Source: Acidimicrobiaceae bacterium (lineage in GTDB: Bacteria > Actinomycetota > Acidimicrobiia > Acidimicrobiales > RAAP-2). From it: 64,000 bases of DNA. Shown piece after piece: positions 1 through 20,150 of this stretch; within the stretch, counting starts at the first letter, position 1; the number at the start of each line of letters is the position of its first letter. The stretch lies in assembly GCA_003158855.1 (NCBI GenBank), contig PMLJ01000034.1, positions 1 to 64,000 on the forward strand, given 5' to 3'. The notes below the pieces were generated by a model that was given only the letters and a program-made list of their open reading frames with translations, searched no databases and was not told where the DNA came from. The translations under genes and the position numbers were made by a program.

Positions 1-1056
1 GCCCCAGAGGTTCTCTTCGAAAACGAGCCTGAATGAGAGTGCGGTTGCTACGAGCGATATCAGGACTGCTGGTTCCAAGGCTGTAGATACGGTTCGTTTT
101 AGAACCCACATCGCTAGGAAAATCGCCAAGGCGATTGGAACGCCTCGGGAAATTGCCATCTCCACTGGACCATGGAGGTGCAGTTCCCACATCACGGTTC
201 CTTGGTCCGCTTGCGTCTGTCCTGAACCGATCACTGCGGACTTCATCGCGCGTCCAGATGTCACCACAACTAGGGGGGCGATGATGACTGACGCGGAGAC
301 AAGCGCAGCTGTTATGAATCTGAATCTTCGGCTCCAAAGAGTCATAGCGGCTAAAGGCACCAAGACTAAAATTGCAAACTGCTGAGAGATAAACGCGAGT
401 CCTAGTAGTGAACCTGACCAGGCCCACCGATTCAATCGCGCGCAGGCCATGCCACCCAAGGCCAATCCCATAGCTAACAAGTCTTGTGGATGGAAGAAAC
501 CTTGAATGCACATGAAGACGGGTGGCGCGACAGCGGTGAACAGGAGAACCGTCGGTTCCCAAACGCAACGTCCTCGGCCACAAGTTCGCAATAGTGAAAC
601 AACTCCGCCCATCAGGGCAAGCCAGCCCAGGTACCCGATTCGGAGAGTGGAAGCAATGGCATTCGATCTGGTGGACCATTGGGATATTGCGTTAAATGCA
701 GTTTGGCAGTGAGCACCGAGTTGAGTGTGATTGGGAAATGGAACGCTGTGGCCAATCCGGAACAATGCTGACAATCCCCCAGAGAGCAAAGGGTAGAGGG
801 GCGCCGTAAGTGGAAGATTGAAGGAACTTGACGGTGGGTAGGCACATGACAGGTGCCCGTGAGCTATCGCCCAAGTTGAATAGATGCTCACTTCAGCGTC
901 CGCTTGCGTCGGGCCCCCGAGCAAGGTGCAAAGTCCAACGAAGACTGCAGTGGCGATCAACCAACCAATGACACACTGCCATTGCGTAATTGGGCGCTCA
1001 AGCCAGGATTTCGGTCCTCCCGAGTGCGGACTGTCAATATCATTAGGCGAATTCAT
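1..1056 (-). CDS. Polytopic membrane protein, possible GT-C type glycosyltransferase (3' end beyond window)
   Basis: The frame is open from an ATG at 1056 to the first base of the window, giving 352 codons with no stop, so the C-terminus lies outside. The product has a short polar N-terminus and a hydrophobic segment near residues 27-50. Several further hydrophobic segments follow, including one after a HPQD motif near residue 210. A soluble N-terminus, an acidic residue pair after the first membrane span and many spans resemble GT-C sugar transferases that use lipid-linked donors. I could not place it in a named family. Its GC content is visibly lower than that of the genes to the right, consistent with acquired DNA. 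Nothing useful can be said about its operon because the next gene is not visible. Confidence 0.55.
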   Translation of the reverse strand, partial: MNSPNDIDSPHSGGPKSWLERPITQWQCVIGWLIATAVFVGLCTLLGGPTQADAEVSIYSTWAIAHGHLSCAYPPSSSFNLPLTAPLYPLLSGGLSALFRIGHSVPFPNHTQLGAHCQTAFNAISQWSTRSNAIASTLRIGYLGWLALMGGVVSLLRTCGRGRCVWEPTVLLFTAVAPPVFMCIQGFFHPQDLLAMGLALGGMACARLNRWAWSGSLLGLAFISQQFAILVLVPLAAMTLWSRRFRFITAALVSASVIIAPLVVVTSGRAMKSAVIGSGQTQADQGTVMWELHLHGPVEMAISRGVPIALAIFLAMWVLKRTVSTALEPAVLISLVATALSFRLVFEENLWG

Positions 1057-1382
1057 CTGGAATAACCTTGTCACGCTCCATTGATTCAATCTTCGGATTC
1101 TCATGTCCGCGACACATTTTCACCTTGAAAATACGCTAGTTGAAACCTAAGCCCAATCTCCTTTCATCTTGCAAGACCTGGTCGAGCCAAATCGTCGTAA
1201 TTCAAGTTGAGGAGTCATTAGCAAGATTCAATGTTCCAAGTTGTGATGGTCGATGTCGAGCCGCTACGGGATCATGCTGGCGCAGATTTCGACATCGCAA
1301 TCCCACGCTTCATCCCACATACGAAACCGACGCCATCAGACGAATCCGACACCACCGGACCATTCCGACCGTTTGCATCCAC

Positions 1383-1424
1383 CTCATAATCCCTCGGTCG
1401 TGGGTTCGATCCCCACCGGTGCTA
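1383..1424 (+). other. 3' half of a CAU-anticodon tRNA (tRNA-Met-like), possible att site
   Basis: The fragment starts with a seven-base anticodon loop CTCATAA (1383-1389). It continues through the 3' anticodon stem TCCCT, a variable region, a perfect T-arm (GTGGG, TTCGATC, CCCAC) and a 3' acceptor strand CGGTGCT with discriminator A at 1424. The matching 5' half is absent: neither AGCACCG nor a partner for TCCCT occurs at the right distance upstream. A tRNA piece running from anticodon loop to 3' end is what tyrosine-recombinase integration leaves behind. The lower-GC sequence on its left fits an island boundary. It cannot make a tRNA itself. Confidence 0.6.
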
Positions 1425-1428
1425 CTAG

Positions 1429-1444
1429 GGGGACTTACGAGAAA
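1429..1444 (+). repeat. Left copy of a 16-bp inverted repeat flanking the beta-propeller gene
   Basis: GGGGACTTACGAGAAA occurs here, 4 nt after the tRNA fragment. It occurs again in inverted orientation at 2843-2858. The pair brackets the secreted beta-propeller gene. No transposase lies between the copies. The rest of 1057-1542 holds only the tRNA fragment; the open frames there have no family resemblance. Confidence 0.6.
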
Positions 1445-1542
1445 TCGAGAACTCTGATACGAGAATTCCGGTGTGAAACCCGCGAACGCCGCGGGCCGCT
1501 CATCGAGACGTGAGGCCCCGCCGTAACGGCCTGGGAGCCGGG

Positions 1543-2583
1543 CTACTTGATGAGACGAACCAGTGAACCGTTAGACGCGTTGAGTTCGGTGACCGAGTTG
1601 CGGGCCAAGTTGGTGACCCAGACATCCCCGGTCGATAGCGCGATTCCGTCGGGCATGTTGAAGTGGCCAGCTGCTGTACTGATCACCCGAACGCGAGTAC
1701 CGTTCGCGGCGTTGAACTCGGAGACCGAGAAGTCCACGATATTGGCCACCCAGACTTTGGAGCCATCCGCGGCGATGGCGCCGACTCCGTTGTTGGAGTT
1801 GCCGTCGCTGCTGACCACGCGCAACCGAGCACCGTCGGACCCGTTGAGCTCGGTGACCACGCTCCCGATGGGCAGGACCCACAGGTCGGTCCCGGCGGCC
1901 GCCAGGGCGGCCGGCATGTAGTACGCGGCGCCCTTTCGGTTGATGACTCGAACGAGCGACCCATTCGAGGTGTTCAACTCAACCAGTGGGCTGCCCTCGC
2001 TATTGGCGACCCACACGTGGCGCCCAACGACGAGCACGGCATCTGGCACAGAGAACCGATCCTTCGAATCATCGATGACGCGCACGAGCGAACCGTCGGA
2101 GGAGTTCAGCTCAGTGAGCGAATTCCCAATATTACCCTCGGGAGTCGTCGTCGGCACGAGCGGGCCGTTGGTGATCCACACGTGACGGTCGCCGACCGAA
2201 ATGGCGTTCGGACTGTCGAATCCGTCGGACGGACTCTGGATGACCCGGATCAGGCGACCGGTGGTGGCGTTCAGCTCCGTCACCGAGTTGCCTTTCTCGT
2301 CCACCACCCAGAGGTGGCCGTCACCGCAGCCCAGCGCGGCGGGGTAGTCGCCCGAGGAGAGGACCCGGATCACCGAACCCGTGGCCTCATTGATCTCCGT
2401 CACCGAGTTGCCTTGCTGATTGGCTACCCACACCCGGTTCCCGCAGGCAGCAATGGCCGTGGGGTGGTCGAAATGGGCGGGAGTCGAAGCGACGGCGTTC
2501 GAGGCCCAGGCGAACGGAATCGCGACACAAGCGGCGAGAATGGACGCAGAGAGGCGACCAAGAGACCGATACTTCATGATCAT
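1543..2583 (-). CDS. Secreted seven-bladed beta-propeller protein (YncE/Vgb-like repeats)
   Basis: The product consists of a signal peptide followed by seven copies of a ~40-residue repeat. Each repeat has a VWVAN-type strand, then SVTELN and a turn ending SLVRVI. Seven such repeats should close one complete beta-propeller, and the last repeat ends exactly at the C-terminus. The frame is open further upstream, but the sequence before the paired ATG codons at 2583/2577 is non-hydrophobic and unlike the repeats. After these ATGs comes a basic residue, a hydrophobic run and an A-x-A site, so translation probably starts there. No enzyme motif is visible; such proteins often bind ligands or partners outside the cell. 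No partner gene is adjacent. Function unknown. Confidence 0.7.
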   Translation of the reverse strand: MIMKYRSLGRLSASILAACVAIPFAWASNAVASTPAHFDHPTAIAACGNRVWVANQQGNSVTEINEATGSVIRVLSSGDYPAALGCGDGHLWVVDEKGNSVTELNATTGRLIRVIQSPSDGFDSPNAISVGDRHVWITNGPLVPTTTPEGNIGNSLTELNSSDGSLVRVIDDSKDRFSVPDAVLVVGRHVWVANSEGSPLVELNTSNGSLVRVINRKGAAYYMPAALAAAGTDLWVLPIGSVVTELNGSDGARLRVVSSDGNSNNGVGAIAADGSKVWVANIVDFSVSEFNAANGTRVRVISTAAGHFNMPDGIALSTGDVWVTNLARNSVTELNASNGSLVRLIK

Positions 2584-3043
2584 TGACGGGCGCAGCACGT
2601 GAACCCCCTGCAACGTTCGTGGTGGACTTCTGGACACCATACTGTCCTGGACTTCTCGCAGGGGCACGGAGGGAGAGACGCAACGCTCCACCTCAAAGTG
2701 TTGCGACCTCGAAGCAGTGCACCGGCTCTCGAGCCGAACCGCGAATTGGTTACGACAAATCGGTCGTGACGACTCCGCTCCTGAGGCGTGACACCTTGGA
2801 GCCGGCAATCACGAAACCGCGGTCACGACAAGGGCTTGAGGTTTTCTCGTAAGTCCCCACCAGTCCGGTCAAGTCAATTCAGGAGTCAACTTCCACAATG
2901 CGACCGCCCTCCGCGATGCAGTTTGCGTGTGCCGCGATACAGGGGATGCCCCATCACGAGCCAATCCTGAAGAGCACTGTCGCTACGACTGAGGCGTACT
3001 CGTCCCACTGAAGGGTTCAGTGCAGGGTGACAGTGCCGACCCT
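2584..3043. other. Intergenic stretch without a supported gene
   Basis: Contains the right copy of the 16-bp inverted repeat and the upstream region of the beta-propeller gene. I see no further gene, RNA or clear terminator. Confidence 0.5.
2843..2858 (-). repeat. Right copy of the 16-bp inverted repeat
   Basis: Reverse complement of 1429-1444, with a perfect 16-bp match. Outside the core the two flanks share only short similarity, so the repeat is not obviously longer. Confidence 0.6.
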
Positions 3044-5173
3044 CTACCCCCAGTTAGCCGGCACGCGGGCGAGTAGGGCCTCCACCTCGTCGGCTGGTAC
3101 GGCGGGTGAGAAGAGGTAGCCCTGGCCGAACTCGCAGTGCAGGAGGCGCAGGCGCTCGAACTGTGCCCGCGTCTCGATCCCCTCGGCGAGCAGAGTCACG
3201 TTGAGTTTCTTTCCCAGCGAGACGATCGTCTCGAGGAGCGTGTCGTTGCGGGCGCTCTGCTGGGGTGGGCTGACGAAGGAACGGTCGATCTTGATGATCT
3301 TCGGGTGCAGCAGCGCGAGGTAGGAGAGCGAGGTGTACCCGGTACCGAAGTCGTCGAGCGCGACAGCAATCCCGAGGCGATTGAGGTGCTCAATCACGCT
3401 CAACGTCTCAGCGACGTCGAGCAGGGTCACGCTTTCGGTGATCTCGATGATGAGGCGTTCTGGGATAAGTCCGCTCGTCCGTAAGCCTCCTTCAATCATC
3501 GATACGAGGCCCGGGTCGTGAAACTGGTGTGCGGAGAGGTTGACCGTGACGTAGGGTCGGCTGGTTCGAGCACCTGTACGATCCCAGGAACTGGCCGCGC
3601 TCACGGCCTCGCGCAATGCGAAGGCGCCGAGATCCAAGATGAGTTCGCTCTGTTCGGCCAGCGGTATGAACACGTCGGGGGGCACCCATCCCCGCTCGGG
3701 GTGTTGCCAGCGCATCAGCGCCTCGAAACCGACCACCTCGGTCGTGGCGAGATCGACGATGGGCTGGTAGTGCATCGAAATCTGACCGGCTTGAAGAGCT
3801 TGGCGCAACTCCTGCAAGAGCGCGAAGCGGCTGGTCGCCTGCTCGCGCATGCTGGGAGTGAAGAGAACATGGTGGCCCTTGCCCTGGCGTTTGGCTTCGT
3901 ACATGGCGACGTCGGCGTCCCTGATAGATTCGGTGAAGTCCGTACTCGTTGCGTCACAGACCACGACTCCGATGCTCGCGTGCTGTGCGAGGTACGCCCC
4001 ATCGATGGAAAACGGTTCGGCGAGCGCACCAAGAAGACGTTTGGCTACCTGCTCGGCCTGAGCCGGGGAGGTCAGTCCCTCGGCCAGATAGAGGAACTCG
4101 TCGCCACCGAAGCGACACAGCGTGTCCGAGGAACGAGTCACCTGGTCGAAGCGGCGCGCAATCGCCACAAGCAACTTGTCGCCAACGAAGTGGCCGAGAG
4201 TGTCGTTCACCCCCTTGAAGTCATCGAGGTCCACTAACAACACCGCGTTGAGCCCGCCTTGGCGAACGACCTTGGCGTGCGCCTGTGAGAGCCGGTCCTC
4301 AAAGAGCACCCGGTTGGCGAGTCCCGTGAGCGGGTCGTGCAGTGCTTGGTGGGAAAGCTGGGCGGTGAGCGCCCGCTCCTCGGTGATGTCGCGCTCTGAC
4401 ATGACGAAGTAGAGCGTCCTTCCTTCGGGGTCGCGGGCGGTGGACCTGTGCACCTCGGCGACTATCACTCGCCCGTCCCTGTGCACGTAGCGCTTGGCAT
4501 AAGTCACTTGATCGGTATCGCCGGAGGTCACGCGGTGGTGGGCCTCCTCACTGATGCCCAGGTCCTCGGGATAGGTGAATGGAGTCGAGTCGTGCCCGAG
4601 AAGTTCCTCCCTGGTGCGTCCGACCATCTGACAGAAGGCGTCGTTGACTGCCAGGATCTTGTCCTCGAGATCGGCGAAGACCATTCCGGCTACGTTGCTC
4701 TCGAACGCGAGGCGGAAGCGCTGCTCGCTCTCCGAGAGCGCCTCGGCGGTGGCCAGCGCATGTAGTTCGAACTCAGTGCGGACTTGCTCTGCTGCCCTCC
4801 GGGCGCGGTCATCGCGGATCATCACTACAACCCACTTTTTGCCGTCAAGGGCGAGGGGCGAGAGGGCGATTTCAACCGCGAGTTCGTTGCCGTCGTGACG
4901 CAAAATCGTGAGATCTAGGCGGCGCCCCATGTCACGTGCGCTCGGGTCCCGGGCGTACTCTTCGCGAAGTACGACGTGCGCATCACGTTCCCGCGACGGC
5001 ACGAGCATATCGACGGCCTGACCGACCAACTCGTCGCGCGTGTAGCCAGTCAGGACCGTGAGGTGATCGTTCGCGTAACGGATCATGCCGTGCTCGTCGA
5101 CGAAGGCGATCCCGTCGGGCAGCACCTCAAGCAGGTGGTTCCAGGAGAGGGGATAATCCTCCAAATAGCTCAA
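3044..5173 (-). CDS. PAS-PAS-GGDEF-EAL cyclic-di-GMP turnover protein (paralog 1)
   Basis: This 709-residue cytosolic protein can in principle both make and break cyclic di-GMP. In order it has a PAS domain (~10-125), a second PAS domain with PAC motif (~145-265), GGDEF (~275-440) and EAL (~450-700). The GGDEF signature is intact (356-360) and the inhibitory RxxD I-site (RSSD, 347-350) lies five residues before it. EAL residues are also present: EAL (484-486), NLS, ITE, DDFG (607-610), KID and AEGIET. No membrane segment or signal peptide is seen, so the PAS domains probably sense an internal signal such as redox state or a ligand. Translation likely starts at TTG 5173, 10 nt after GGGAG. Paralogs 2 and 3 lie just upstream on the same strand. 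Confidence 0.93.
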   Translation of the reverse strand: MSYLEDYPLSWNHLLEVLPDGIAFVDEHGMIRYANDHLTVLTGYTRDELVGQAVDMLVPSRERDAHVVLREEYARDPSARDMGRRLDLTILRHDGNELAVEIALSPLALDGKKWVVVMIRDDRARRAAEQVRTEFELHALATAEALSESEQRFRLAFESNVAGMVFADLEDKILAVNDAFCQMVGRTREELLGHDSTPFTYPEDLGISEEAHHRVTSGDTDQVTYAKRYVHRDGRVIVAEVHRSTARDPEGRTLYFVMSERDITEERALTAQLSHQALHDPLTGLANRVLFEDRLSQAHAKVVRQGGLNAVLLVDLDDFKGVNDTLGHFVGDKLLVAIARRFDQVTRSSDTLCRFGGDEFLYLAEGLTSPAQAEQVAKRLLGALAEPFSIDGAYLAQHASIGVVVCDATSTDFTESIRDADVAMYEAKRQGKGHHVLFTPSMREQATSRFALLQELRQALQAGQISMHYQPIVDLATTEVVGFEALMRWQHPERGWVPPDVFIPLAEQSELILDLGAFALREAVSAASSWDRTGARTSRPYVTVNLSAHQFHDPGLVSMIEGGLRTSGLIPERLIIEITESVTLLDVAETLSVIEHLNRLGIAVALDDFGTGYTSLSYLALLHPKIIKIDRSFVSPPQQSARNDTLLETIVSLGKKLNVTLLAEGIETRAQFERLRLLHCEFGQGYLFSPAVPADEVEALLARVPANWG

Positions 5174-5615
5174 GATGCGTTTGCTCCCGTCCGACTTGCT
5201 GAACTAGCGAAATGCAACGCCTACCATGCATATTGACACAAGAACAGAACCGTGCCCATGGGAGAGATTCATGGGCATGTTAAGCATCGAAGCCTGCACC
5301 ATTCGGACCTTCCTGGTCGAATCCGCCAACCGCAGATTGTTGATGTCCGTCCTTCGCCAGGAACATGGACACTGCATGATCGCGTTCAAAGATCTCGTGG
5401 AACGAGTCAGAGGGATGGCGGAATCGTCAGAAGCGAGCGCGAATACGGGCGACCCGTCGATCTTCAGTCCATGGACGGGGAGTTCGATGAATCACGACTT
5501 GAATGAGTACCCCACGCTCGAGACAATCCCGGTAAAAGGCCCCGCGTTGGAGAGCAGGCCGACTTCACGCCGTAGCTCCGCCACGAGCTCCCCAGGACGT
5601 GCTATCCAGCGACTC
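5174..5615. other. Intergenic region with an 8-bp inverted repeat
   Basis: No supported gene. TGCCCATG (5253-5260) and CATGGGCA (5270-5277) form a perfect inverted repeat with a 9-nt spacer, about 80 nt upstream of the first GGDEF-EAL gene. It could be an operator or hairpin; I see no equivalent upstream of the other two paralogs. Confidence 0.4.
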
Positions 5616-7751
5616 TCAATCGTCCAGCAGCCGACCGAGCATGTTCGCCGTCTCCTCGGCGGGAACCGCAGGTGACCACAGGAATCCTTGGCCGAGATCG
5701 CAGTCGAGGTTGTGAAGGCGTTCGAGTTGGGCTGAAGTCTCGATCCCCTCGGCGAGCACGGTCATGTTGAGCTTGTTGCCGAGCGTGACGATCGCCTCAA
5801 GCAACGTGTCGCTTCGTTCCTTGTCGTGTCTTGGACGAACAAAGGATTGGTCGATCTTGATGATCCTTGGGTTCAGGGCCGCGAGGTATGAGAGAGAGGA
5901 GTAACCCGTACCAAAATCATCGAGGGCGACACCAACCTTGAGGCGGTTCAGCTGCTCCATGACATTCATTGTCTCGACGATGTCCACCAGCGCCACACCC
6001 TCGGTGACCTCCAGGATGAGACGATCCGGCTCGAGCCCGCTTCGCCCGAGTTCTGCTTCGATCATGGCCACAAGGCCGGGATCGTGGAACTGTCGCGCCG
6101 AGAGATTGACCGTCACGTACGGGGCGTCGGCCTGAGCATCACTTGCTCCCCAGGAGCTGGCGGCGGCCATGGCCTGGCCCAGCGCGAACGAGCCAAGTTC
6201 CAGAATGAGGTCGCTCTGCTCGGCGAGGGGAATGAACACGTCGGGGGGTACCCATCCTCGCTCGGAATGCTGCCAGCGCATCAGCGCCTCGAAACCAACC
6301 ACCTTGGTCGTCGTGAGATCGATGATGGGCTGGTAGTGCATCAAGAGCTCGCCGCAGGTCAATGCGTGGCGCAGTTCCAGGATGAGCGCGAAGCGGCTTA
6401 CGGCCTCAAGGCCAATGTCGGGGGTGAAGGTGACAACGTGACCGTGGCCTCGGCGCTTGGCCTCGTACATCGCGGCGTCGGCGTTCTGGACGAGTTCGAC
6501 GTTGTCCGCGCTCTCGCCGTCCCAGACCACGATTCCGACGCTCGCCCGTTGTTCGAGTTTGACCCGATCGAAAGAAAACGGCTCGGTCAGTGTCTCGAGA
6601 AGTCGATCCGCTATCACTTTGGCCTCGGCGGACGAGGCCAATCCCTCGGCCAAGTACAGGAACTCGTCACCCCCGAAACGGCACAGCGTGTCCGTCGAGC
6701 GGGTGACCTGCTCGAAGCGGTTGGCAAGGGTTACGAGCAGTTGGTCGCCGACCAAGTGGCCGTACGCATCATTCACTCCCTTGAAGTCATCGAGGTCCAA
6801 CAGCAACACGGCACCGAGTTTTCCTTCGCGGGCGACCCTCGCGCGGGCTTGGTCGAGCCGATCATCGAAGAGGGCCCGGTTGGCGAGCCCCGTGAGCGGG
6901 TCGTGCAACGCCTGGTAGGAAAGCTGGGCGGCGAGCGCCCGCTCCTCGGTGATGTCGCGCACCGAGGAGATGAAGTAGAGTGCCGCGCCGCTCTCGTCGC
7001 GGGCCGAACAGATCGACACTTCGACGACACCGATTCGCCCGTTCTTGTGCAGGAAGCGCTTGCCGTAGCGATCCTGGTCTATTTCGCCGGACTTGATGCG
7101 CCGGTAGATATCTTCGGTGACGCCTATGTCCTCAGGGTGGGTGAAGTGCTTCGAGTCGCGCCCGATCAGTTCTTCCCTGGTGCGCCCGCTCATCCGACAG
7201 AAGGCGTCGTTTACTGCCAGAAACAAGCCATCCTGGTCGCTGAAGACCATGGGGGCCATATTCCCCTCGAACGCGAGACGGAAGCGCTGCTCACTTTGCG
7301 CCAGCGCCGCGGCGGCGGTGGCCTCGATGTCGATGGCGTGGCTCACGGCGATGATGCGGGCTCGTTCGGCGGCTCTTTGAGTTGTGTTGTCACGGATTTC
7401 CACGACGACCCATGATTGGGTGTCGACGCAGAGCCGTGAGAAGGCGAAGTCGACGGGCAACTCACTACCATCGCGGCACAGGATGGCGTGATTTGGATCG
7501 TGCAGTATCTGCGGAGTACTCAGGTCGCCCGCGCACCCGTGGCGTGTCATGAAGTGCTCGTCACGTTGTAGAGGCGGTACGAGAACCTGAATGTCTTGGC
7601 CGACGAGTTCCTCTAGCGGGTAACCCGTCATATCGGCGAGGCGCTGGTTGAGATCACCGATGACCCCATGATCATCAATGAGGGCAATCCCGCCGGGTAG
7701 CGCTTCCAGCAGATTCTGCACGCCCACAGGATGGTCTTCGAAGTACCTCAC
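5616..7751 (-). CDS. PAS-PAS-GGDEF-EAL cyclic-di-GMP turnover protein (paralog 2)
   Basis: The domain order is the same as paralog 1: two PAS domains, GGDEF and EAL, about 711 residues and no membrane segment. It has the intact CRFGGDEF motif, the I-site RSTD five residues before it, and an intact EAL catalytic set (FEALMRW, NLS, DDFGTGYSS, IKID, AEGIET). The open frame extends to 7946. The GTG at 7751 is preferred because GAAGG lies 6 nt upstream and the product then aligns with the start of paralog 1 (VRYFEDHP against MSYLEDYP). The extra upstream residues are low-complexity and lack a counterpart. It is probably a tandem duplicate whose divergent PAS domains tune it to a different signal. 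Confidence 0.92.
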   Translation of the reverse strand: MRYFEDHPVGVQNLLEALPGGIALIDDHGVIGDLNQRLADMTGYPLEELVGQDIQVLVPPLQRDEHFMTRHGCAGDLSTPQILHDPNHAILCRDGSELPVDFAFSRLCVDTQSWVVVEIRDNTTQRAAERARIIAVSHAIDIEATAAAALAQSEQRFRLAFEGNMAPMVFSDQDGLFLAVNDAFCRMSGRTREELIGRDSKHFTHPEDIGVTEDIYRRIKSGEIDQDRYGKRFLHKNGRIGVVEVSICSARDESGAALYFISSVRDITEERALAAQLSYQALHDPLTGLANRALFDDRLDQARARVAREGKLGAVLLLDLDDFKGVNDAYGHLVGDQLLVTLANRFEQVTRSTDTLCRFGGDEFLYLAEGLASSAEAKVIADRLLETLTEPFSFDRVKLEQRASVGIVVWDGESADNVELVQNADAAMYEAKRRGHGHVVTFTPDIGLEAVSRFALILELRHALTCGELLMHYQPIIDLTTTKVVGFEALMRWQHSERGWVPPDVFIPLAEQSDLILELGSFALGQAMAAASSWGASDAQADAPYVTVNLSARQFHDPGLVAMIEAELGRSGLEPDRLILEVTEGVALVDIVETMNVMEQLNRLKVGVALDDFGTGYSSLSYLAALNPRIIKIDQSFVRPRHDKERSDTLLEAIVTLGNKLNMTVLAEGIETSAQLERLHNLDCDLGQGFLWSPAVPAEETANMLGRLLDD

Positions 7752-7932
7752 GATACGCCTTCTTTCATTCACCTCATTGCGCTGGCGGAGCGAAGAATTG
7801 AAGAAATTGCCATATGGTGGGACATTAGTTCTTTCAACCTTCGCGAACTGGTCACGGATGCCAAGATTTGACTTGCGGCCGGGACCCGGCGCCTCGGTGT
7901 CTCGGCCGCCGCCACGCGGTGCAGGAGTGCGC

Positions 7933-8151
7933 ATGAGAGACCTCACGGTTCAACCCATGAGCGAATCCGACGCCGCCCGGCGACTGCTCCTCCAGCACGT
8001 GGGAATTCCGATGAGTTCGATTCAATCCAACATCATTGGACCGTTGGAACCGCAGGCAGCGATCTCGTGGATCTTGGATCGTGAGGTGTACTCCCACCGG
8101 CCCGCTCGGGGGATTTCGTCAAGTGAACATCGAGTACCACTTATGAACTGA
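7933..8151 (+). CDS. Small hypothetical protein, 72 aa
   Basis: A short open frame with an ATG five nucleotides after a perfect AGGAG. The product is soluble, has no recognised motif, and ends in TGA at 8149-8151. It lies divergently from the second GGDEF-EAL gene and points toward the collagen-like gene. The ribosome-binding site is the main evidence; nothing else confirms that it is expressed. Confidence 0.35.
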   Translation: MRDLTVQPMSESDAARRLLLQHVGIPMSSIQSNIIGPLEPQAAISWILDREVYSHRPARGISSSEHRVPLMN

Positions 8152-8329
8152 GGAGGTCATCCATCCCAGCGCCGATACATCAATGACCTAGACGCTCATT
8201 CCTCGGCCTGACGTCATCGCATCGAGACGGATGATCTTCTGCGCTAGCGAGTCGACAATAAACGCGTCGGTTGCTTCAATGGTCACCTATTCACGGCTCA
8301 GGAAAAAGTAAGGTACTACGGGCCCGCAA

Positions 8330-8362
8330 TTGATCGACGACTGAATTGCCGCCGTCGATCAA
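8330..8362 (+). promoter_or_regulatory. 10-bp inverted repeat upstream of the collagen-like gene
   Basis: TTGATCGACG (8330-8339) and CGTCGATCAA (8353-8362) are perfect inverted arms with a 13-nt spacer. They lie 57 nt before the GTG of the collagen-like gene. The element could be a 5'-UTR hairpin or an operator. The sequence alone does not decide between these. Confidence 0.45.
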
Positions 8363-8418
8363 GACCGTCGCTCGTCTCGGTGTCACAAGTAGTGAACCGA
8401 GCAGAAGGAGCTTTTAGC

Positions 8419-9213
8419 GTGAAAACCAACAAATGGATGTTCAGAGGGCTCGCCGCAGGCGTACTACTCACGGTAGCGAGCATCGCTACCGCGGCTGCGT
8501 CAACAACGAGCTCGACGACCTCGCCTTATCAGGCGTGTTCGACGTCCACTCACGTGCTTTCATTGGAAGTGAATGGCAAGTGCTCCACCGGTGCGCACGT
8601 CGTCATGATTTCAGGTCGAGGCGCTACTGGCACGAGTGGTGCCACGGGCGCGACCGGCGCTGCTGGCCTCAACGGCACCCCGGGCGTTGGACTCATGGGC
8701 GCGCAGGGAATTCAAGGTATCCAAGGCGCGCAGGGTGTGGCGGGCGTCGCCGGTTCGTCGGGTAGTGCCGCCGCGGTCTACTACCACCAGACCATCGCGA
8801 CCCCGGGAGCCGACCAGGCTGACCCCGCAACCGTGACGTTGGCGACCATCGGTCCGTTCACCGTCACCGGCTCGTGCTACCTGTCCGGCTCCACCGCGTA
8901 CGTGTCGACCGTCGTTTCCACCACCCAGGACCACTCGGCCCTGAGCGACTACGACGCGGACGCCTACCACCCGGACTGGATGTCCGCCGACACGTACAAC
9001 GTTGGGACCAGTCTGAGCGGTTCGCAGGGCAACCCGTCATTCGAGGGTCCGAATGACGGAACCACCGCGTTCGCTTCGGCCGACGGCAGTACCTTCGTCA
9101 ACCTCTCGCCGGGCGTTGGGTCGTACGTCGGCTCCGGCGGCGGCGCGACAGTTCCCGCATGCTCGTTCTTCGGCTTCTACAGCTCGAACGTCAGCAGTAC
9201 GCCTCTCGCGTAA
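8419..9213 (+). CDS. Secreted collagen-like (Gly-X-Y) protein
   Basis: The 264-residue product begins with a basic stretch and a hydrophobic signal peptide ending in AAA-ST. A Thr/Ser-rich linker with one Cys pair follows, then about 16 Gly-X-Y triplets (GAT, GTS, GLN, GTP, GIQ, GAQ, GVA), interrupted once by GVGLM. The last ~150 residues form a non-repetitive domain with two Cys. Gly-X-Y runs of this kind form collagen-like triple helices in bacterial surface or exported proteins. The GTG at 8419 is chosen over the upstream frame because AAGGAG lies 8 nt before it. No cell-wall anchor motif is seen. It sits between cyclic-di-GMP genes, so a role in surface attachment under that second messenger is possible but not shown. 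Confidence 0.78.
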   Translation: MKTNKWMFRGLAAGVLLTVASIATAAASTTSSTTSPYQACSTSTHVLSLEVNGKCSTGAHVVMISGRGATGTSGATGATGAAGLNGTPGVGLMGAQGIQGIQGAQGVAGVAGSSGSAAAVYYHQTIATPGADQADPATVTLATIGPFTVTGSCYLSGSTAYVSTVVSTTQDHSALSDYDADAYHPDWMSADTYNVGTSLSGSQGNPSFEGPNDGTTAFASADGSTFVNLSPGVGSYVGSGGGATVPACSFFGFYSSNVSSTPLA

Positions 9214-9238
9214 GAACCACCTTCACTGAACGGTAGCG

Positions 9239-9270
9239 CCAGCCCCTCGGTCTTGGAATCGAGGGGCTGG
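9239..9270 (+). terminator. Hairpin terminator after the collagen-like gene
   Basis: Eleven-base arms CCAGCCCCTCG and CGAGGGGCTGG enclose a 10-nt loop, 25 nt after the stop codon. No T-run follows, so it may be an I-shaped (U-less) terminator as is common in actinobacteria. Confidence 0.65.
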
Positions 9271-9340
9271 TGTGCGTTACGCCAGTCCGAAACTGGGCTG
9301 TCTCAGCCGAATCGAAGTCCTCACTGCATCGGTCCTCAGG

Positions 9341-10216
9341 CTATTTTCGACGAATTGCGGTCCGGATTTCATCGACGGACGGCCGATAGTCGATTCGTGA
9401 TTTCATCCGTAGTTCTCGAAGCTGCGGAAGGCTCAGCAGAAGTGAAAGGTTTGCGTCGAGTATTCGCGTCGAGCCCCACGCGTGAAGGACTTCGAGTTCC
9501 TTCAGACCGCTGATGGGCGCGAGCGACTCGATTCGCTTGCAGTCGTTCAGCCCGAGGTGTCGCAGATGTTCGAGAGCGCTCAGCGCGTCAATTCCTCCAA
9601 TTCGCGAGCAGAAGTCGAAACTGAGCTCCCCCAGGGAGGGATCGGCATCGGCGAGTTCTGAAATGTCGGAGAGCTCCCGGGCCAGATGAATGCCCAATGC
9701 CGAAATTGACTCCAAAGCGCTGATGCCTCGCAGTGTTCGCAGTCGAGGCGCGTCTCGTATGGTCAATCTCTTGAGTTTCGGGTGATTGCCCAGCGGGCGG
9801 AAATCGGCTTCGTCAAAATTCCAGGTCGAGAGGGCTTCTAGCGACCCGACCTGAACCCGTGGTGAACGAAGGAGCTGCCATTCGCATGAGATGTTGCGAA
9901 GTCGAGGGAATCCCGCGAAGTCGAGGCGGGCTTCGGACGCGGCGCGCACCGAAAGCTCCTCGAGCGATCGAGAGAATCTACCGATGGGCGTCAGGTCAAC
10001 CAGCAGCGGGTCGTGTATCCGCAAGCGACGCAAGGGCCATTCTTGGAAGAACGTCAGGTCGTTTTCGCTGAAGCCCTTCTCATAACTGAGGGTTAGCCCG
10101 TCAACCTCACCGCTGCTCAGAAGGCGAGCGGCTTCCTCGGTCCACGGACCGGTGACGACCAAAGTGCGTCCGTGGGGACCGTCTTCAAGGATGAAGGGTT
10201 TTCTTGGCCTAACCAT
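9341..10216 (-). CDS. Leucine-rich-repeat-like protein
   Basis: The 291-residue soluble product has a short N-terminal segment and then irregular ~22-residue repeats. These show the LxxLxLxxC/N spacing of leucine-rich repeats, clearest in the second half (HLRHLGLNDC, LKELEVLH, LPQLRELRM). No signal peptide or membrane span is seen, so it is probably cytosolic and acts by protein binding. The ATG at 10216 is chosen because upstream residues are not LRR-like. A TAGATT hexamer lies 5 nt before it and no Shine-Dalgarno sequence is visible. It is flanked by the collagen-like and third GGDEF-EAL genes. No partner is known. Confidence 0.6.
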   Translation of the reverse strand: MVRPRKPFILEDGPHGRTLVVTGPWTEEAARLLSSGEVDGLTLSYEKGFSENDLTFFQEWPLRRLRIHDPLLVDLTPIGRFSRSLEELSVRAASEARLDFAGFPRLRNISCEWQLLRSPRVQVGSLEALSTWNFDEADFRPLGNHPKLKRLTIRDAPRLRTLRGISALESISALGIHLARELSDISELADADPSLGELSFDFCSRIGGIDALSALEHLRHLGLNDCKRIESLAPISGLKELEVLHAWGSTRILDANLSLLLSLPQLRELRMKSRIDYRPSVDEIRTAIRRK

Positions 10217-10538
10217 GGCTGAATCTAACTCGGTCGATGTTTCGTGCAAGTTAATACTCAATGAATTCGACGACGAGACGAGCGGCCCGTTGGGATTCGA
10301 AGTGCGACCTAGCAGACACCTCCGTTCTGAACGAGGCTGGTGGCTGAACGAAACTGCCATCACTGCGCGCCGTCATGTCGGACTGACTTCACACCAGGTG
10401 AGCCACATTCACCAGTTCCGGGAGTTCGCAACGCACAATGGGCGTGGTCGTGTCGAATCTGCCGGGCTGTCGGCGTTGGAAAGGCGCCCGCATGACTTCG
10501 CCGCCTCAACGACAAATGCCGAGGCCAGCCAATTCCCG
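10217..10538. other. Intergenic stretch without a supported gene
   Basis: Lies between the LRR-like gene start and the end of the third GGDEF-EAL gene. Open frames here are antisense extensions of their neighbours. No hairpin or RNA is evident. Confidence 0.4.
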
Positions 10539-13500
10539 TCAGGCGTCAAAGACCCTTCGGACCATGGTCGTGGCGATGTCGGCCGGTACCGCGGGCGAGA
10601 AGAGGTAACCCTGGCCAAGGTGGCAGTTGAGAAGACGGAGTTGTTCCAGTTGTCCAGGGGTCTCGATGCCTTCAGCGAGCAAGGTCATGTTGAGTTTGGT
10701 TCCGAGCGTGATGATTGTCTCGAGGAGCGTGTCGTTTTCGGGGCTGTCGTGGGTGGGGCTGACGAAGGACTTGTCGATCTTGATGATGCGAGGGTGCAGC
10801 CGCGTGAGATAGGAGAGAGAGGAGAATCCTGTGCCGAAATCGTCGAGCGCGATTCCAATCCCCAGGCGATCGAGATGCTCAATCACGGTCAGCGTCTGGG
10901 CGACGTTGAGCAGAGCCACACCTTCGGTAATCTCGAGAATCAGGCGCTCAGGCGCGAGACCGCTTTCCAGCAACGCTCGTTCGATCATCGGTACCAGGTC
11001 GGGGTTGTGGAATTGGAACGCCGAGATATTCACGGTCACGTAGGGCAGCTTGACGGAGGGGTTCACCTGCGCCCAGGACACCGCAGCCTTCACGGCTTCA
11101 CGCAGCACGAAGTGGCCAAGCTCCAGAATGAAATCGCTCTGCTCGGCCAGCGGAATGAACACGGCGGGAGACACCCATCCGCGCTCCGGGTGCTGCCAGC
11201 GCATCAGCGCTTCGAATCCGACAACTTCGGTGGTCACCAGGTTGACAATGGGCTGGTAGTGCATCGAGATCTCACCGGACTGGAGGGCCAGGCGAAGCTC
11301 CTGGGCGAGGACGAAGCTACTGACCACTTGCTGGTGCATATCGCGAGTGAAGATGGCAAAGCGGCCCCGGTGCTCGCGCTTGGCCTCGTAGAGAGCCACG
11401 TCGGCGTTCTGAACGAACTCCGTGGAGTCCTTGCTCGTCGAATCCCAGATCACCACTCCAATGCTTGCTCGCTGTTCGAGGTCGAGTCCCCCGAAGACGA
11501 AGGGCTCCGAGAGCACGTCGAGAAGACGGTTCGCCACGTCTTCGGCTTCCGCCGCGGATGAGAGGCCTTCGGCCAGATAGAGGAACTCGTCGCCGCCAAA
11601 CCGACAGAGCGCGTCCGAGGAGCGGGTTACAAGTTCCAGGCGTCGTGCGATTCCCACCAGCAATTGGTCGCCAATGAGGTGACCATGCGTGTCGTTGACT
11701 CCCTTGAAGTCGTCAAGATCCATCAGGAGCACTGCGCCCATACTGCCTTGGCGAGCGATCCTCGAGTGAGCTTGGGCAAGTCGATCATCGAAGAGTGCTC
11801 GGTTGGCGAGCCCCGTAAGCGGGTCATGGAGTGCGAGGTGCGAGAGTTGGTCAGTGAGAGTCTGCTCCTCGGTTATGTCGCGCTCCGAAGCAATGAAGTA
11901 GAGGGTCTTGCCGGAGGCATCATGCGCCGCGGATCTCGAGACCTCCGAGAAGACGACACGGCCGTCCTTTCGCAGGTACCGCTTGGTGTAGCGCACCTGG
12001 TCGACATCGTCGGAGACCAGGCGAAGGTGGGTCCCCTCAGTGATGCCCACATCCTCGGGATGCGTGAATTGAATCGAATCGTGCCCCAGCAGTTCTTCCC
12101 GGGTGAATCCGACCATTCGGCAGAAAGCGTCATTGACGGCGATGGCCTTGTCCTCGAGATCACTGAAGATCATGGGCGCCATGTTGCTCTCAAATGCGAG
12201 TCGAAATCGCTGTTCGGATTCGATGAGGGCGAGTTCAGTTTCCCTCAGGCTCTCGTTGGCTGCGACTGTATCTTCCAACGCGGCCGAAGTCTCTTGAGTC
12301 GCGCGAATGTGGGTGATCGCGAGTTCGGCCTCTCGAACAATGTCCTCGAGCCCACTCACCGTTATCTCATCGAATGAGAAGGCGTCGCGATGGTAGACGA
12401 CGAGTGCCGCCCGGCGCTCGCCTAGTCGGTCCGGAATCGCAACCATTGATCCGAATCCGAACTGGGTTGCTCGCTCGCCCCAAGGGCCGGACACGCAGTG
12501 ATGAGCAAGATCGTTCACAACTTGGCTCTCACCAGTCCGCAGCGCCATCCACGTCGGCCCCGATCTCACCTCACGGGACCCCCACCAAGAATCCATCTCC
12601 TCGTGCAGGTAGTCGCTGGCTCCGGCGGCGCACATGATCTCGACGCCTCCGGCATCGTCGTTTGACGAGATGCCAATCCACGCGAGGACGCATCCACCCT
12701 TGTCGACCAGGACGTTGCAGAGTTCCTGGCGAAACTCATCCTCGTCGACGGCGTGAACCGCAAGTTTGTTCACTGCGGCAAGCAGGCCCAGGAGGCGATC
12801 CCTTTGTCTCCGCTCGGTGATATCGCGCTCGGAGATGACGTAGTAGAGAGTGTTCCCGGCGGCGTCGCTAGCGCGGGCTCGTGAGACCTCGACGATGACC
12901 ACCCGACCGTCCTTGCGCAAGTAGCGCTTTATGTAGCGAGACTGATCGGTGCCAACCTGCACCATGCGCTGGTGGGACTCCTCGGTGATGCCAACATCCT
13001 CGGGGTAGGTAAATGGCCTGGAGTCACTGCCAAGGACTTCGTCCCGGGTGAATCCGAGCATCTCGCAAAAAGCGTCATTGACGGCGATGGCCTTGTCCTC
13101 GAGATCGGTGAAGACCATCGGGGCCATGTTGTCTTCGAACGCCAGACGAAAGCGCAGTTCATCTTGCGCGCGTATCATCTCGGCAGCCCGACGGACGCTG
13201 TCGTCACGGATCAAGGCCGCAACCCACAGTTTGCCTTCAAAGAGGAGAGGTGCCAGGGAGACGTCGATTGCGAGTTCGCTGCCGTCCTTACGCAGGAGTT
13301 TCAAGTCCATGTCGGTGCCCATCTCGCGTGAACTCGGATTGCGTATGAATCCATTGCGACCGAACACGTGCGATCTACGCTGTCGTTGCGGAATCAGGAA
13401 CTCCACCTTCTGACCGACGACTTCATCGATTGAGTAACCGGTAATCACCGCGAGTCGATCGTTGGCGTGACGAATGACACCGTGCTCGTCGACGAATGCG

Positions 13501-13673
13501 ACGCCGTCGGGTAGCACCTCAAGCAGCTGCTGCCACGAAAGATCCTGTTGTGTTAGTACGAGCGAGATATCAGATTCGTGACGTCGCGTAACCGCGCTCT
13601 TGCTTCTAATAATCTCACGAGTCCATTCATCACAATTGTCGGAGAAGACTCCGACAATGCAAGTTTCCCTCAC
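10539..13673 (-). CDS. PAS-PAS-GAF-PAS-GGDEF-EAL cyclic-di-GMP turnover protein (paralog 3)
   Basis: This is the largest of the three paralogs at 1044 residues. It has PAS (~45-160), PAS/PAC (~172-285), GAF (~295-455), a third PAS/PAC (~485-610), GGDEF and EAL domains. GGDEF is intact with I-site RSSD five residues before it. EAL, DDFGTGFSS, IKID and AEGIET are also intact. Compared with paralogs 1 and 2, a GAF-PAS pair is inserted between the second PAS and the GGDEF. The GAF domain could bind a cyclic nucleotide, haem or another small ligand. No membrane segments. The start is uncertain: GTG 13673 is the only usual start codon before the first PAS domain. The region upstream is AT-richer than the gene. 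Confidence 0.92.
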   Translation of the reverse strand: MRETCIVGVFSDNCDEWTREIIRSKSAVTRRHESDISLVLTQQDLSWQQLLEVLPDGVAFVDEHGVIRHANDRLAVITGYSIDEVVGQKVEFLIPQRQRRSHVFGRNGFIRNPSSREMGTDMDLKLLRKDGSELAIDVSLAPLLFEGKLWVAALIRDDSVRRAAEMIRAQDELRFRLAFEDNMAPMVFTDLEDKAIAVNDAFCEMLGFTRDEVLGSDSRPFTYPEDVGITEESHQRMVQVGTDQSRYIKRYLRKDGRVVIVEVSRARASDAAGNTLYYVISERDITERRQRDRLLGLLAAVNKLAVHAVDEDEFRQELCNVLVDKGGCVLAWIGISSNDDAGGVEIMCAAGASDYLHEEMDSWWGSREVRSGPTWMALRTGESQVVNDLAHHCVSGPWGERATQFGFGSMVAIPDRLGERRAALVVYHRDAFSFDEITVSGLEDIVREAELAITHIRATQETSAALEDTVAANESLRETELALIESEQRFRLAFESNMAPMIFSDLEDKAIAVNDAFCRMVGFTREELLGHDSIQFTHPEDVGITEGTHLRLVSDDVDQVRYTKRYLRKDGRVVFSEVSRSAAHDASGKTLYFIASERDITEEQTLTDQLSHLALHDPLTGLANRALFDDRLAQAHSRIARQGSMGAVLLMDLDDFKGVNDTHGHLIGDQLLVGIARRLELVTRSSDALCRFGGDEFLYLAEGLSSAAEAEDVANRLLDVLSEPFVFGGLDLEQRASIGVVIWDSTSKDSTEFVQNADVALYEAKREHRGRFAIFTRDMHQQVVSSFVLAQELRLALQSGEISMHYQPIVNLVTTEVVGFEALMRWQHPERGWVSPAVFIPLAEQSDFILELGHFVLREAVKAAVSWAQVNPSVKLPYVTVNISAFQFHNPDLVPMIERALLESGLAPERLILEITEGVALLNVAQTLTVIEHLDRLGIGIALDDFGTGFSSLSYLTRLHPRIIKIDKSFVSPTHDSPENDTLLETIITLGTKLNMTLLAEGIETPGQLEQLRLLNCHLGQGYLFSPAVPADIATTMVRRVFDA

Positions 13674-18288: not shown

Positions 18289-19167
18289 CTAGGAAAGCAC
18301 GCGCCGGCGAAAGTTGTGTAGGCCGAGCGAAAGGAAGCCGACGCAAAATGCGATGAGCACGGGGTAGATCACGTACAGGTGCATGTGGGGGACGTCGGTG
18401 AACGCCGCGCGCATGCCTTCGTTGACGTAGAGCAGGGGATTGACGAGCACGATCGTCTGCAGCCAGTGCCACGCGCCAACCTTCACCGGCGCGAGACGGT
18501 TCCACTGGTAGTACGTGCCGCCGAGGAACGTGATGGGAAGGATCACAAAACCGAACATCAGTCCGATGTTTCGAGGTTCGAAGCTCGTGCCGAGCACCAA
18601 CCCGAGCGATCCCATCGCGATGCAGGCGAGCGGGACGACGGTGATCAAGACGAGCCAATGAATCGAGATGTTCGCCTCGACGCCTTTCGCGTGCACGATC
18701 GACGCGATCGGAAGGACGATCGCGGCCGAGATCATCCCTTGGATCGCCCCAGAGATCACCTTCTCCACGGCCACCAGCCAGATCGGGCACGGCGCCTGCA
18801 CGCGGTCTTCAATCTCGCGCGTGAAGCCGAACTCCTGGGACATCTGGAGCGCCACCGACTGCACTCCTTGAAACATGATTGATATCCCGACAACCCCGGC
18901 CACGAGCACGGTGGCGAAGATGCTTGCGGCGTCCGCCGGACCGCCGCTGCCAACGGACTGGCCGATCTTTGGAAAGACGAAGAGGAACACGAAGCAGAGA
19001 AGAAACGGCTGGATGATCGTTCGAAGGAGGAAGATCCCGAAGTCCTTTCTCAGCACCGTGACGTCGCGCAACAGGAGCGCCCCGAACGCGGCACGGCTCG
19101 CCGAGAGGGAGGATCGGCGCGGGCCAACCGTGATGTGGTGGTCCGCTTGGACTTCGTGGGTAGCCAT
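18289..19167 (-). CDS. ABC-2 type exporter permease (DrrB-like)
   Basis: The 292-residue membrane protein has six predicted spans and the ABC-2 membrane fold. The conserved region before span four reads LGTSFEPRN, and the following segment reads PITFLGGTYY, as in DrrB-type drug and lipid exporters. ATG 19167 overlaps the stop codon of the ATPase gene by one base (TAATG), so translation is coupled and the two form one transporter. The frame is open further upstream, but that sequence is antisense to the ATPase frame. The substrate is unknown. Confidence 0.9.
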   Translation of the reverse strand: MATHEVQADHHITVGPRRSSLSASRAAFGALLLRDVTVLRKDFGIFLLRTIIQPFLLCFVFLFVFPKIGQSVGSGGPADAASIFATVLVAGVVGISIMFQGVQSVALQMSQEFGFTREIEDRVQAPCPIWLVAVEKVISGAIQGMISAAIVLPIASIVHAKGVEANISIHWLVLITVVPLACIAMGSLGLVLGTSFEPRNIGLMFGFVILPITFLGGTYYQWNRLAPVKVGAWHWLQTIVLVNPLLYVNEGMRAAFTDVPHMHLYVIYPVLIAFCVGFLSLGLHNFRRRVLS

Positions 19168-20150
19168 TAGTCGCGCAGCTCCTTGCCGGTGAGGTTGATG
19201 AAGACCGTCTCCAGCGAAGGCTCCGCGACCGACAGGTCTGCGACGTGGAACCCGTTCGCTTCGGCGGCGGCGACCACTCGCGCGAGCAGCCGCTCGCCAC
19301 CGGTCACGTGAAGTTCCACGCCTTTTTCGATGAGGCGGCTGTGGGTGACGCCCTCGACTTTCTCTTCGAGGACTGAGGCGAGGAGGGCGAGGTTCCCGGA
19401 CGTCTTGATGGTGACGATCGTGTCGACCCCGACCGAGCGCTTGAGTCCGTCCGGGGTATCTAACGCCAGGATCTTGCCGTGGTCCATGATCGCCACGCGA
19501 TTGCAGAGCTGATCGGCCTCTTCCATGTAGTGCGTCGTCAGAAGGATCGTCTGCCCGTCGGCGTTTAACTGCTGGAGAATCTCCCAGAGTGCGAGGCGGC
19601 TCTGGGGATCGAGGCCGGCGGTGGGCTCGTCCATGAAGAGCACGGCGGGACGATGGAAGATCGAACGCGCCACCATGAGGCGTTGCGCCATGCCGCCCGA
19701 GAGCGCGTAGACGGACGCCTTGGCCCACTTGGCCAGCTGAAACTGCTCGAGCAGGCGGTCGGAGGTCTCGCGCGATTCGGCGGCGCCGATGCCGAAGAGG
19801 CGGCCGTGGAAGTAGAGATTCTCCCAGACCGTGAGTTGGCGGTCGAGGGTGTTGACCTGCGAGACGACGCCGAGGAACTGCTTGGCGATGGCGGGATGCT
19901 GGACGACGTCGACCCCGGCTACTACCGCCGATCCGGATGTCGGAATGACTCGCGTCGTGAGCATGCCGGCGACCGTTGTCTTACCGGCGCCATTGGGGCC
20001 GAGGAGACCGAAAATCTCACCGGGCGAGACCGAGAGGTTGAGTTCGTCAACGGCGCGAAAGTCCGCGCCGCCGTAGACCTTGGTGAGGTTCGTTGTGACG
20101 ATGACCGGAGCGGCCGAGATCTGCGTTGGCTGCGTCATGGTTTTCATCAT
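19167..20150 (-). CDS. ABC transporter ATP-binding protein (DrrA-like)
   Basis: The ATPase is about 327 residues. It has Walker A GPNGAGKTT, a Q-loop, the signature LSGGMAQRL, Walker B VLFMDEPTAGLDP, an H-loop TTH and the ~90-residue C-terminal extension of the DrrA/CcmA group. It energises the permease encoded immediately downstream. ATGs at 20150, 20147 and 20138 are all possible and none has a good ribosome-binding site; the first is used here. It is most likely an exporter of a hydrophobic compound or lipid. Confidence 0.9.
   Translation of the reverse strand: MMKTMTQPTQISAAPVIVTTNLTKVYGGADFRAVDELNLSVSPGEIFGLLGPNGAGKTTVAGMLTTRVIPTSGSAVVAGVDVVQHPAIAKQFLGVVSQVNTLDRQLTVWENLYFHGRLFGIGAAESRETSDRLLEQFQLAKWAKASVYALSGGMAQRLMVARSIFHRPAVLFMDEPTAGLDPQSRLALWEILQQLNADGQTILLTTHYMEEADQLCNRVAIMDHGKILALDTPDGLKRSVGVDTIVTIKTSGNLALLASVLEEKVEGVTHSRLIEKGVELHVTGGERLLARVVAAAEANGFHVADLSVAEPSLETVFINLTGKELRD

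Follow-up and report, generated by a model that had tools for sequence, protein, structure and literature searches.

The window analysed here is a stretch of 64,000 nucleotides that starts at base 1 of contig C11 of its source genome, which is a draft MAG (2.72 Mb, 50 contigs, 96.5% complete), as are all genomes with which it was compared. The features that matter for the following analysis, in the window and, where stated, on contig C7 of the same genome, are these:

1-1104, minus strand: membrane-protein gene of array unit 3, with a likely start at ~1056 and its remainder on C7 (complete 438-aa homologue in the sister MAG G126)
1-1425, no strand: the window's part of array unit 3, which is ~1842 bp long together with C7:1-466 (match to unit 1 of G126:C15)
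~1299-1382, plus strand: left arm of the window site (ATCCCAC pair, CCGAC-type repeats, comparison of sites)
1383-1424, plus strand: tRNA-Met 3' half, the core of the site, from anticodon loop to discriminator base (sequence reading, genome match)
1426-8103, no strand: presumed older unit or fused units (gene content, decayed site at the far end)
1543-2808, minus strand: NHL-repeat gene, within 1426-8103
3044-5173, minus strand: PAS-GGDEF-EAL gene, within 1426-8103
5616-7946, minus strand: PAS-GGDEF-EAL gene, within 1426-8103
7962-8103, plus strand: probable fourth composite site in decayed form, comprising left arm and core (24.1 bits with the Met-only profile)
18289-19728, minus strand: ABC-2 membrane protein gene, start of the conserved chromosomal flank, kept in relatives
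23914-25212, plus strand: MFS gene of the conserved flank, kept in relatives
C7:5394-5321, minus strand: intact tRNA-Met(CAT) of the same genome

The 42-nt piece at 1383-1424 had been described in an earlier note as a tRNA-Met 3' half without a 5' half, and this description was confirmed. The piece comprises, in order, the anticodon loop (CTCATAA), the 3' anticodon stem, the variable loop, the T arm, the 3' acceptor strand, and the discriminator base, and neither ARAGORN nor Rfam at gathering thresholds called a tRNA in the window. Over the first 37 nt (1383-1419), the piece and the intact tRNA-Met(CAT) of this genome have the same sequence (genome-wide E 1.1e-12). The two sequences differ at two positions of the acceptor strand, which reads CGGTGCT in the scar and CGGCCCT in the intact gene, as expected where selection on the copy has ceased. 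Besides the scar, three more copies of the 3' part were detected in the genome, all of them on C7, one being the 3' end of the intact tRNA-Met itself. Both the intact gene and the further copy to the left that the note had proposed to look for are thus present.

The note had also placed the edge of a lower-GC block at the scar. The step is real, with GC contents of 0.50-0.55 in 500-bp windows starting at 1-1001 and of 0.59-0.64 in those starting at 1251-4751, but it is not unique, as GC drops again to 0.54-0.57 at 5001-5500 and 7751-8500. It is probably not the outer limit of the inserted DNA either, because a decayed fourth site probably lies at 7962-8103. There, the 24.1 bits obtained with the Met-only profile compare with 7.5 bits for the best of 21 controls. 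The E value of only 0.34 with the mixed model R1, a sequence-only site model trained on seven sites, counts against this site, which furthermore overlaps a predicted ORF. As a side aspect, three PAS-GGDEF-EAL genes lie close together on the same strand at 3044-13673 of the window, and a 92% homologue of the first is found inside a cassette unit of the sister MAG G103.

The reverse complement of the first 49 bases of C7 agrees with the window's own first 49 apart from two differences. C7 ends inside the membrane-protein gene of the window and holds its remainder. As the joined unit has a contiguous homologue in G126, we take C7 and C11 to adjoin. The resulting order is tRNA-Met, 1153 bp, 3' half, 3700 bp, 3' half, ~1842 bp, and finally the 3' half that forms the scar of the window, with all 3' halves oriented as tRNA-Met. 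The 1153-bp unit carries an alpha/beta hydrolase, and the 3700-bp unit a YefM-YoeB pair, a nucleotidyltransferase-HepT pair, and other genes. The membrane-protein gene of the third unit, reported in the earlier note, is real, as its homologue in the sister MAG is a complete 438-aa ORF; the protein gave weak GT87 and PMT_2 matches below the Pfam cut-offs. The intact tRNA-Met and the further 3' halves leftward support the proposed footprint of a tRNA-targeted integration with inserted DNA to the left. The expectation of a single element carrying its own integrase was not borne out: there is no Phage_integrase match on C7 or C11, the two contigs of this array, and the scar closes a passive ~1.8-kb unit, the third in a chain.

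The core is only one part of a longer site. An arm of the kind found at ~1299-1382 precedes many other 3' halves, and each site consists of an outer ATCCCAC repeat pair, 19-bp repeats GAATCCGACACCACCGGAC with CGGANNNNTCCG dyads, ~12 bp, and the core. In the window, the outer pair lies at ~1299-1320 and is followed by CCGAC-type repeats with CGGANNNNTCCG dyads and ~12 bp to the core, the arm being ~42 bp shorter than the fullest arms. The sites are ~130 bp long, with a mean column identity of 82% (20 sites). In an alignment of 58 Met-type sites that keep the left arm, the 60 columns that end with the core include 50 in which the majority base reaches at least 0.88, whereas it stays at 0.28-0.59 in the 60 columns past the core, rising slightly at column 1 (0.59) and at columns 9-11 (0.47-0.55). 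The strict ATCCCAC pair is present on the left in 41 of these 58 sites and on the right of the core in none. We regard the site as a one-sided composite attachment site whose repeats look like the arm-type sites of integrases. Its identity to the tRNA starts at the anticodon loop, which corresponds to class A in Islander (PMC4383910). A second type of left arm, in which the outer box GGCCTCATTTTAGGCCTCA replaces the ATCCCAC pair, was seen at tRNA-Lys cores (L221, L224, L074:696-784, and similar loci).

Sister MAGs contain arrays of the same kind. In the stretches read, the Met-only profile, with partial sites included and the tRNA itself excluded, detected 16 sites over ~21 kb behind tRNA-Met in G119, 17 over ~41 kb in G111, 10 in G147, 8 in G103, 4 in G107, 6 up to the contig end in G146, and 6 in G126, where an N gap breaks the tRNA-Met. 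All sites detected in tRNA-Met arrays by this profile search share the orientation of the tRNA. The 68 intervals, some of which are bounded by partial sites, have a median length of 1376 bp and a mean GC content of 0.557; three exceed 7 kb, some reaching 7-10 kb. A greedy call of ORFs of at least 50 aa on either strand gave a single ORF in 33 intervals and more than one in the other 35, and genes lie on either strand within units. The cargo is diverse: a scan of 68 of the 118 ORFs that reach 95 aa gave matches to 54 Pfam families, none of them in more than three proteins, with exchangers, glyoxalases, SnoaL-like proteins, hydrolases, and Fic proteins as examples. PADLOC indicated some defence candidates among the cargo, SoFic having the top score. 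Separately, a unit with a VapBC-like gene pair (by reading) that ends in a partial core was seen ~130-1000 bp behind tRNA-Met in G154:C10 (L304).

Several units recur in other genomes next to other neighbours. The window unit and unit 1 of G126:C15 align over 1883 of 1884 bp with 95.4% identity. In the window, the match stops at 1438, ~13 bp beyond the core, and the adjacent units differ. The hydrolase unit is shared by G119, G111, G126, and this genome with 79-91% pairwise identity, and occupies position 3, 3, 5, and 1, respectively, the position in G126 being counted one late because its units were numbered from the first detected site. A 2.3-kb unit is common to G111 (position 4) and G147 (position 5) with 95% identity. 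Positions 2889-5387 of the window, with an EAL gene, are 92% identical to DNA in a G103 unit, and this homology ends where the G103 left arm starts. The recurrence of the same units with other neighbours and the breaks of homology near the sites indicate, at the level of sequence comparison, that the units move as units.

The score of the sites drops as one moves away from the tRNA (seven arrays; weighted mean rho -0.38, permutation p 0.002), in agreement with growth at the tRNA end. Individual arrays show much noise, however, and sites that are related do not count as independent data; omission of this genome left the trend in place (rho -0.34, p 0.004), and G146 alone gave 0.0.

The region behind tRNA-Met also differs in length among relatives. 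The flank genes that follow tRNA-Met at ~23.6-29.3 kb here lie only 1.2-9.7 kb behind it in relatives. A homologue of the MFS gene, which is 29.3 kb from tRNA-Met in this genome, was present in 7 of 20 relative stretches, at 3.1, 4.2, 4.3, 5.6, 7.1, 8.5, and 9.7 kb; it was not found in the other 13, several of which end early at contig ends. Six of the seven relatives with the homologue have no composite site, and G086 (7.1 kb) has one. These differing distances indicate that the region behind tRNA-Met is a variable slot. The comparison with related genomes suggested by the earlier note therefore gave several relatives with a much shorter interval to the conserved flank, but no empty site at base level, as the flanks close to the tRNA are not conserved and only the interval to the conserved flank gene is comparable. 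The NHL-repeat gene was tried as a flank marker and rejected, as it had matches of mostly low identity in 14 of 99 genomes and the two closest aligned in the gene only.

Composite sites are not restricted to tRNA-Met. R1 found 12 of them in this genome at E 1.2e-8 or better, its seven training sites among them: three are behind tRNA-Met, and nine have tRNA-Lys-like cores on C38, C47, and C25. All nine are on the minus strand, with five located in C38:41.9-65.1 kb, and according to our reading of the ORFs they are separated by metabolic-looking genes, such as genes for an aldehyde dehydrogenase and an amidohydrolase.

The distribution of the sites is narrow. Among 150 genomes of the family, composite sites at E 1e-12 or better were found in 27 of 77 genomes of the genus and in none of 73 of other genera, counted as result rows at that threshold from a search that itself applied stricter filters. 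Searched on its own across 298 genomes of the order, the left arm turned up in three, which all belong to this one genus out of 171. An exact site pattern matched 13 stretches in GTDB contigs, all titled Acidimicrobiaceae MAGs and 12 of them named palsa or bog; these palsa and bog MAGs presumably come from Stordalen Mire. A viral or plasmid carrier of the sites was considered and rejected: two exact DNA patterns had no match in IMG/VR, and matches of one site to phage and plasmid collections covered only 25-28% of the query, namely its tRNA end.

This genome has nine Phage_integrase matches, eight of them over the cut-off, and none with Met specificity was found in it. None of eight tRNA-Met arrays (this genome, G119, G111, G103, G126, G147, G146, and G107) contains an integrase. 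In G133, tRNA-Met is followed by ~50 bp, then by ATCCCACGTAAATCCCAC, and then by a gene for a 393-aa integrase pointing away from the tRNA, and the repeat pair is the ATCCCAC pair of the cassette left arms. The protein has Phage_integrase and N-terminal SAM domains above the cut-off, and its arm-DNA-binding domain remained below the Pfam cut-off (17.8 versus 22.3 bits). Neither a composite site, left arm, or cassette behind tRNA-Met nor the far end of the integrase-bearing element was found in the 48 kb of contig read. The element (G133:C5, L303) has genes that resemble restriction or methylase and helicase genes according to our reading of the ORFs.

The G133 integrase had 28 matches in 99 genomes. 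By reading of the upstream DNA, 20 of them follow a tRNA of the same orientation, two a tRNA 3' end at a contig edge, five a tRNA of opposite orientation, and one none. Only G133 is at tRNA-Met, and the repeat pairs vary by target. The relative in this genome is 65% identical, lies at tRNA-Lys(TTT), and has a different repeat pair. At this locus (C27:20000-30000, L070), we observed an intact tRNA-Lys(TTT), a right arm, and the tyrosine integrase, and, by reading, a coupling-protein-like ATPase and a putative Xis nearby; it looks like an ICE, the far end of which was not located. When viral carriers were considered, a single viral relative of the G133 integrase was found, with 27% identity.

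A second integrase family is found in or at tRNA-Lys, with the C-terminus at the core. In 11 of the 12 close loci that were read, the integrase borders on a clear tRNA-Lys 3' half, and in the remaining one on a short piece; three of the loci follow an intact tRNA-Lys, and in three the same left arm precedes the core. The idea that the outer boxes are a leftover integrase 3' end, based on the G119:C120 integrase that reads toward the core, was discarded, since in the cases read it is the opposite side of the core that borders on the integrase. Other integrase loci may be mentioned in passing. At C20:113641-113664 (L071:5641-5664), the 5' end of tRNA-Arg(CCT) is present as a 24-nt copy, which has an integrase in its vicinity and the intact gene at a distance of ~1.1 kb; a second, weaker-scoring tRNA-Arg(CCT) lies 8.7 kb away (L038:3836-3910). 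Three neighbouring Phage_integrase genes on one strand occur in G140 (C58, C14, C15, and C8), G111 (C21), and G101 (C24), and we take these runs to resemble recombinase-in-trio elements.

We consider it reasonably likely, with a probability of about 65%, that a tRNA-Met-anchored array of passive gene cassettes is served by an integrase acting in trans, and that positions 1-1425 of the window are the distal portion of one such cassette. A cassette would consist of one or a few genes followed by the one-sided composite site, that is, the left arm and the tRNA 3'-half core. The integrase would be a tyrosine integrase of the phage type, supplied from outside the array by an element like the one in G133, and by strand exchange at the core it would join a circular cassette to the 3' half of the intact tRNA-Met. 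The incoming core would restore the tRNA, and the old 3' half would be displaced outward behind the new cassette, so that the array would gain units at the tRNA end and its older sites would deteriorate. A cassette would leave the array when two cores recombine, and cassettes may pass from cell to cell. In favour of this model, the sequences themselves show the array and its recurrence in sister MAGs, the build of the site, the limits of the units, the units shared with other neighbours, and the matching repeats at the G133 integrase; the longer interval to the conserved flank and the outward fall of the site scores agree with it, whereas strand exchange, action in trans, circles, growth at the tRNA end, and passage between cells are deduced from these observations. 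Several findings speak against this model. No integrase lies in the arrays, and the G133 enzyme is the only relative at tRNA-Met, with its arm domain below the cut-off and no cassette behind it. Phage-type integrases usually need both arms, and the right repeat pair is absent from 58 of 58 sites and the strict left pair from 17 of 58. Finally, 35 of the 68 intervals are multi-ORF, some reach 7-10 kb, and the comparison involves draft MAGs only.

The best surviving alternative, which we regard as unlikely, is an accretion of the kind that yields CIMEs: successive integrative elements of one family would have entered tRNA-Met, and each would have lost its integrase and transfer genes, leaving a graveyard. 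Accretion at tRNA genes is established (PMC5704250). It would explain the stacking, and it agrees with the outward fall of the site scores and with the integrase-bearing elements that do occur in tRNA-Lys arrays. Independent decay, however, would not lead one to expect units this small (median 1.4 kb; a single ORF in 33 of 68) that end in near-invariant sites and recur with other neighbours, which counts against accretion. The accretion and cassette readings overlap.

Far less probable is a shuffling of units by homologous recombination or duplication between the repeated sites in place of site-specific recombination. Sites of ~130 bp with such similarity suffice for some exchange of this kind, and it may add to site-specific exchange. 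It leaves unexplained how the units first gained arm and core, and all detected sites of the tRNA-Met arrays keep the tRNA orientation, with the tRNA itself staying whole. A misjoining of contigs at repeated sites during assembly or binning has, in our view, marginally less in its favour still: only draft MAGs are involved, some sites contain N stretches, and the window starts at a contig break, but this break lies inside a gene and not at a site, the joined unit matches a contiguous unit of G126, and arrays recur at the same tRNA-Met in separate MAGs with sites that differ among themselves. A true integron with IntI and attC sites, which the layout of small stacked units with the site at one end recalls, is very improbable in view of the cores being tRNA halves, of the single-strand folding of six sites (z -1.3, -1.0, -1.2, -3.0, -0.2, and -0.9, with only one beyond -2), and of scores of only 34 and 32 bits for the candidate integrases on the integron-integrase model (cut-off 265).

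The preferred cassette reading has relatives among known systems. In Methylophilaceae fGI-2, the last 20 nt of tRNA-Lys(ctt) occur repeatedly and mark the insertions stacked at one tRNA (PMC10872708), and in Alteromonas fGI1 a tRNA is the insertion target for gene cassettes (PMC4119200). Like these additive islands, the arrays described here have inserts stacked at one tRNA gene with repeated tRNA 3' ends and a content that varies among relatives at a conserved location. The descriptions of fGI-2 and fGI1 considered here include no left arm or composite site, whereas the units analysed here often have a single gene, carry a near-invariant one-sided site, and are common to genomes with other neighbours. 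CIMEs are integrase-less elements that are flanked by attachment sites and stacked at a tRNA 3' end (PMC5704250). The units resemble them in being flanked by attachment sites with no Phage_integrase match on C7 or C11, and our reading of the ORFs recognised no transfer genes in the units. They differ in being far more numerous and far smaller. An origin by decay of an ICE or IME is a possibility; the integrase-bearing element seen at tRNA-Met, that of G133, showed no far end in the contig stretch read. With integrons, the arrays share the order of small units, the site at one end, and toxin-antitoxin cargo; unlike in integrons, the core is a tRNA 3' half, genes lie on either strand, and no IntI or attC-like fold was found.

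Tycheposons, compared here by their description in PMC10872708, likewise have tRNA-Met among their targets, a tyrosine recombinase, and cargo genes. They are described there as spanning 4-200 kb with the recombinase inside the element, whereas the present units have a median of 1.4 kb and no recombinase. The tandem islands of Islander share the tRNA target, the displaced 3' fragments, and the anticodon-loop crossover class; Islander accepts tandems only with an integrase in each member, and its tally for 3919 islands is 125 tandems with at least two members and 4 with at least three (PMC4383910). In the literature searched, with preprints and most subscription journals outside its coverage, no description of such a system was seen. 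The arrays are of a known kind with respect to additive tRNA islands and CIME accretion; new are the one-sided composite site, the number and density of the units, their small size, and their sharing across the genus.

A further-reaching interpretation, to which we would give somewhat less than even odds, is that of a dedicated integron analogue, in which a phage-type integrase would serve a genus-wide pool of minimal, one-sided, often single-gene cassettes. In this case, tRNA-Met and tRNA-Lys would be the landing platform, the tRNA would be restored with each insertion, and adaptive genes would be exchanged among peatland Acidimicrobiaceae without IntI and attC. Integrons are the textbook bacterial system for gathering single genes in ordered arrays. 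If a tRNA-targeting integrase runs a similar library of passive units, cassette capture has more than one evolutionary origin, and apparent graveyards at tRNA genes may in fact be functional gene stores. With the model of the site, arrays can be counted in any genome, units followed from one genome to another, and the integrase assayed on a minimal site.
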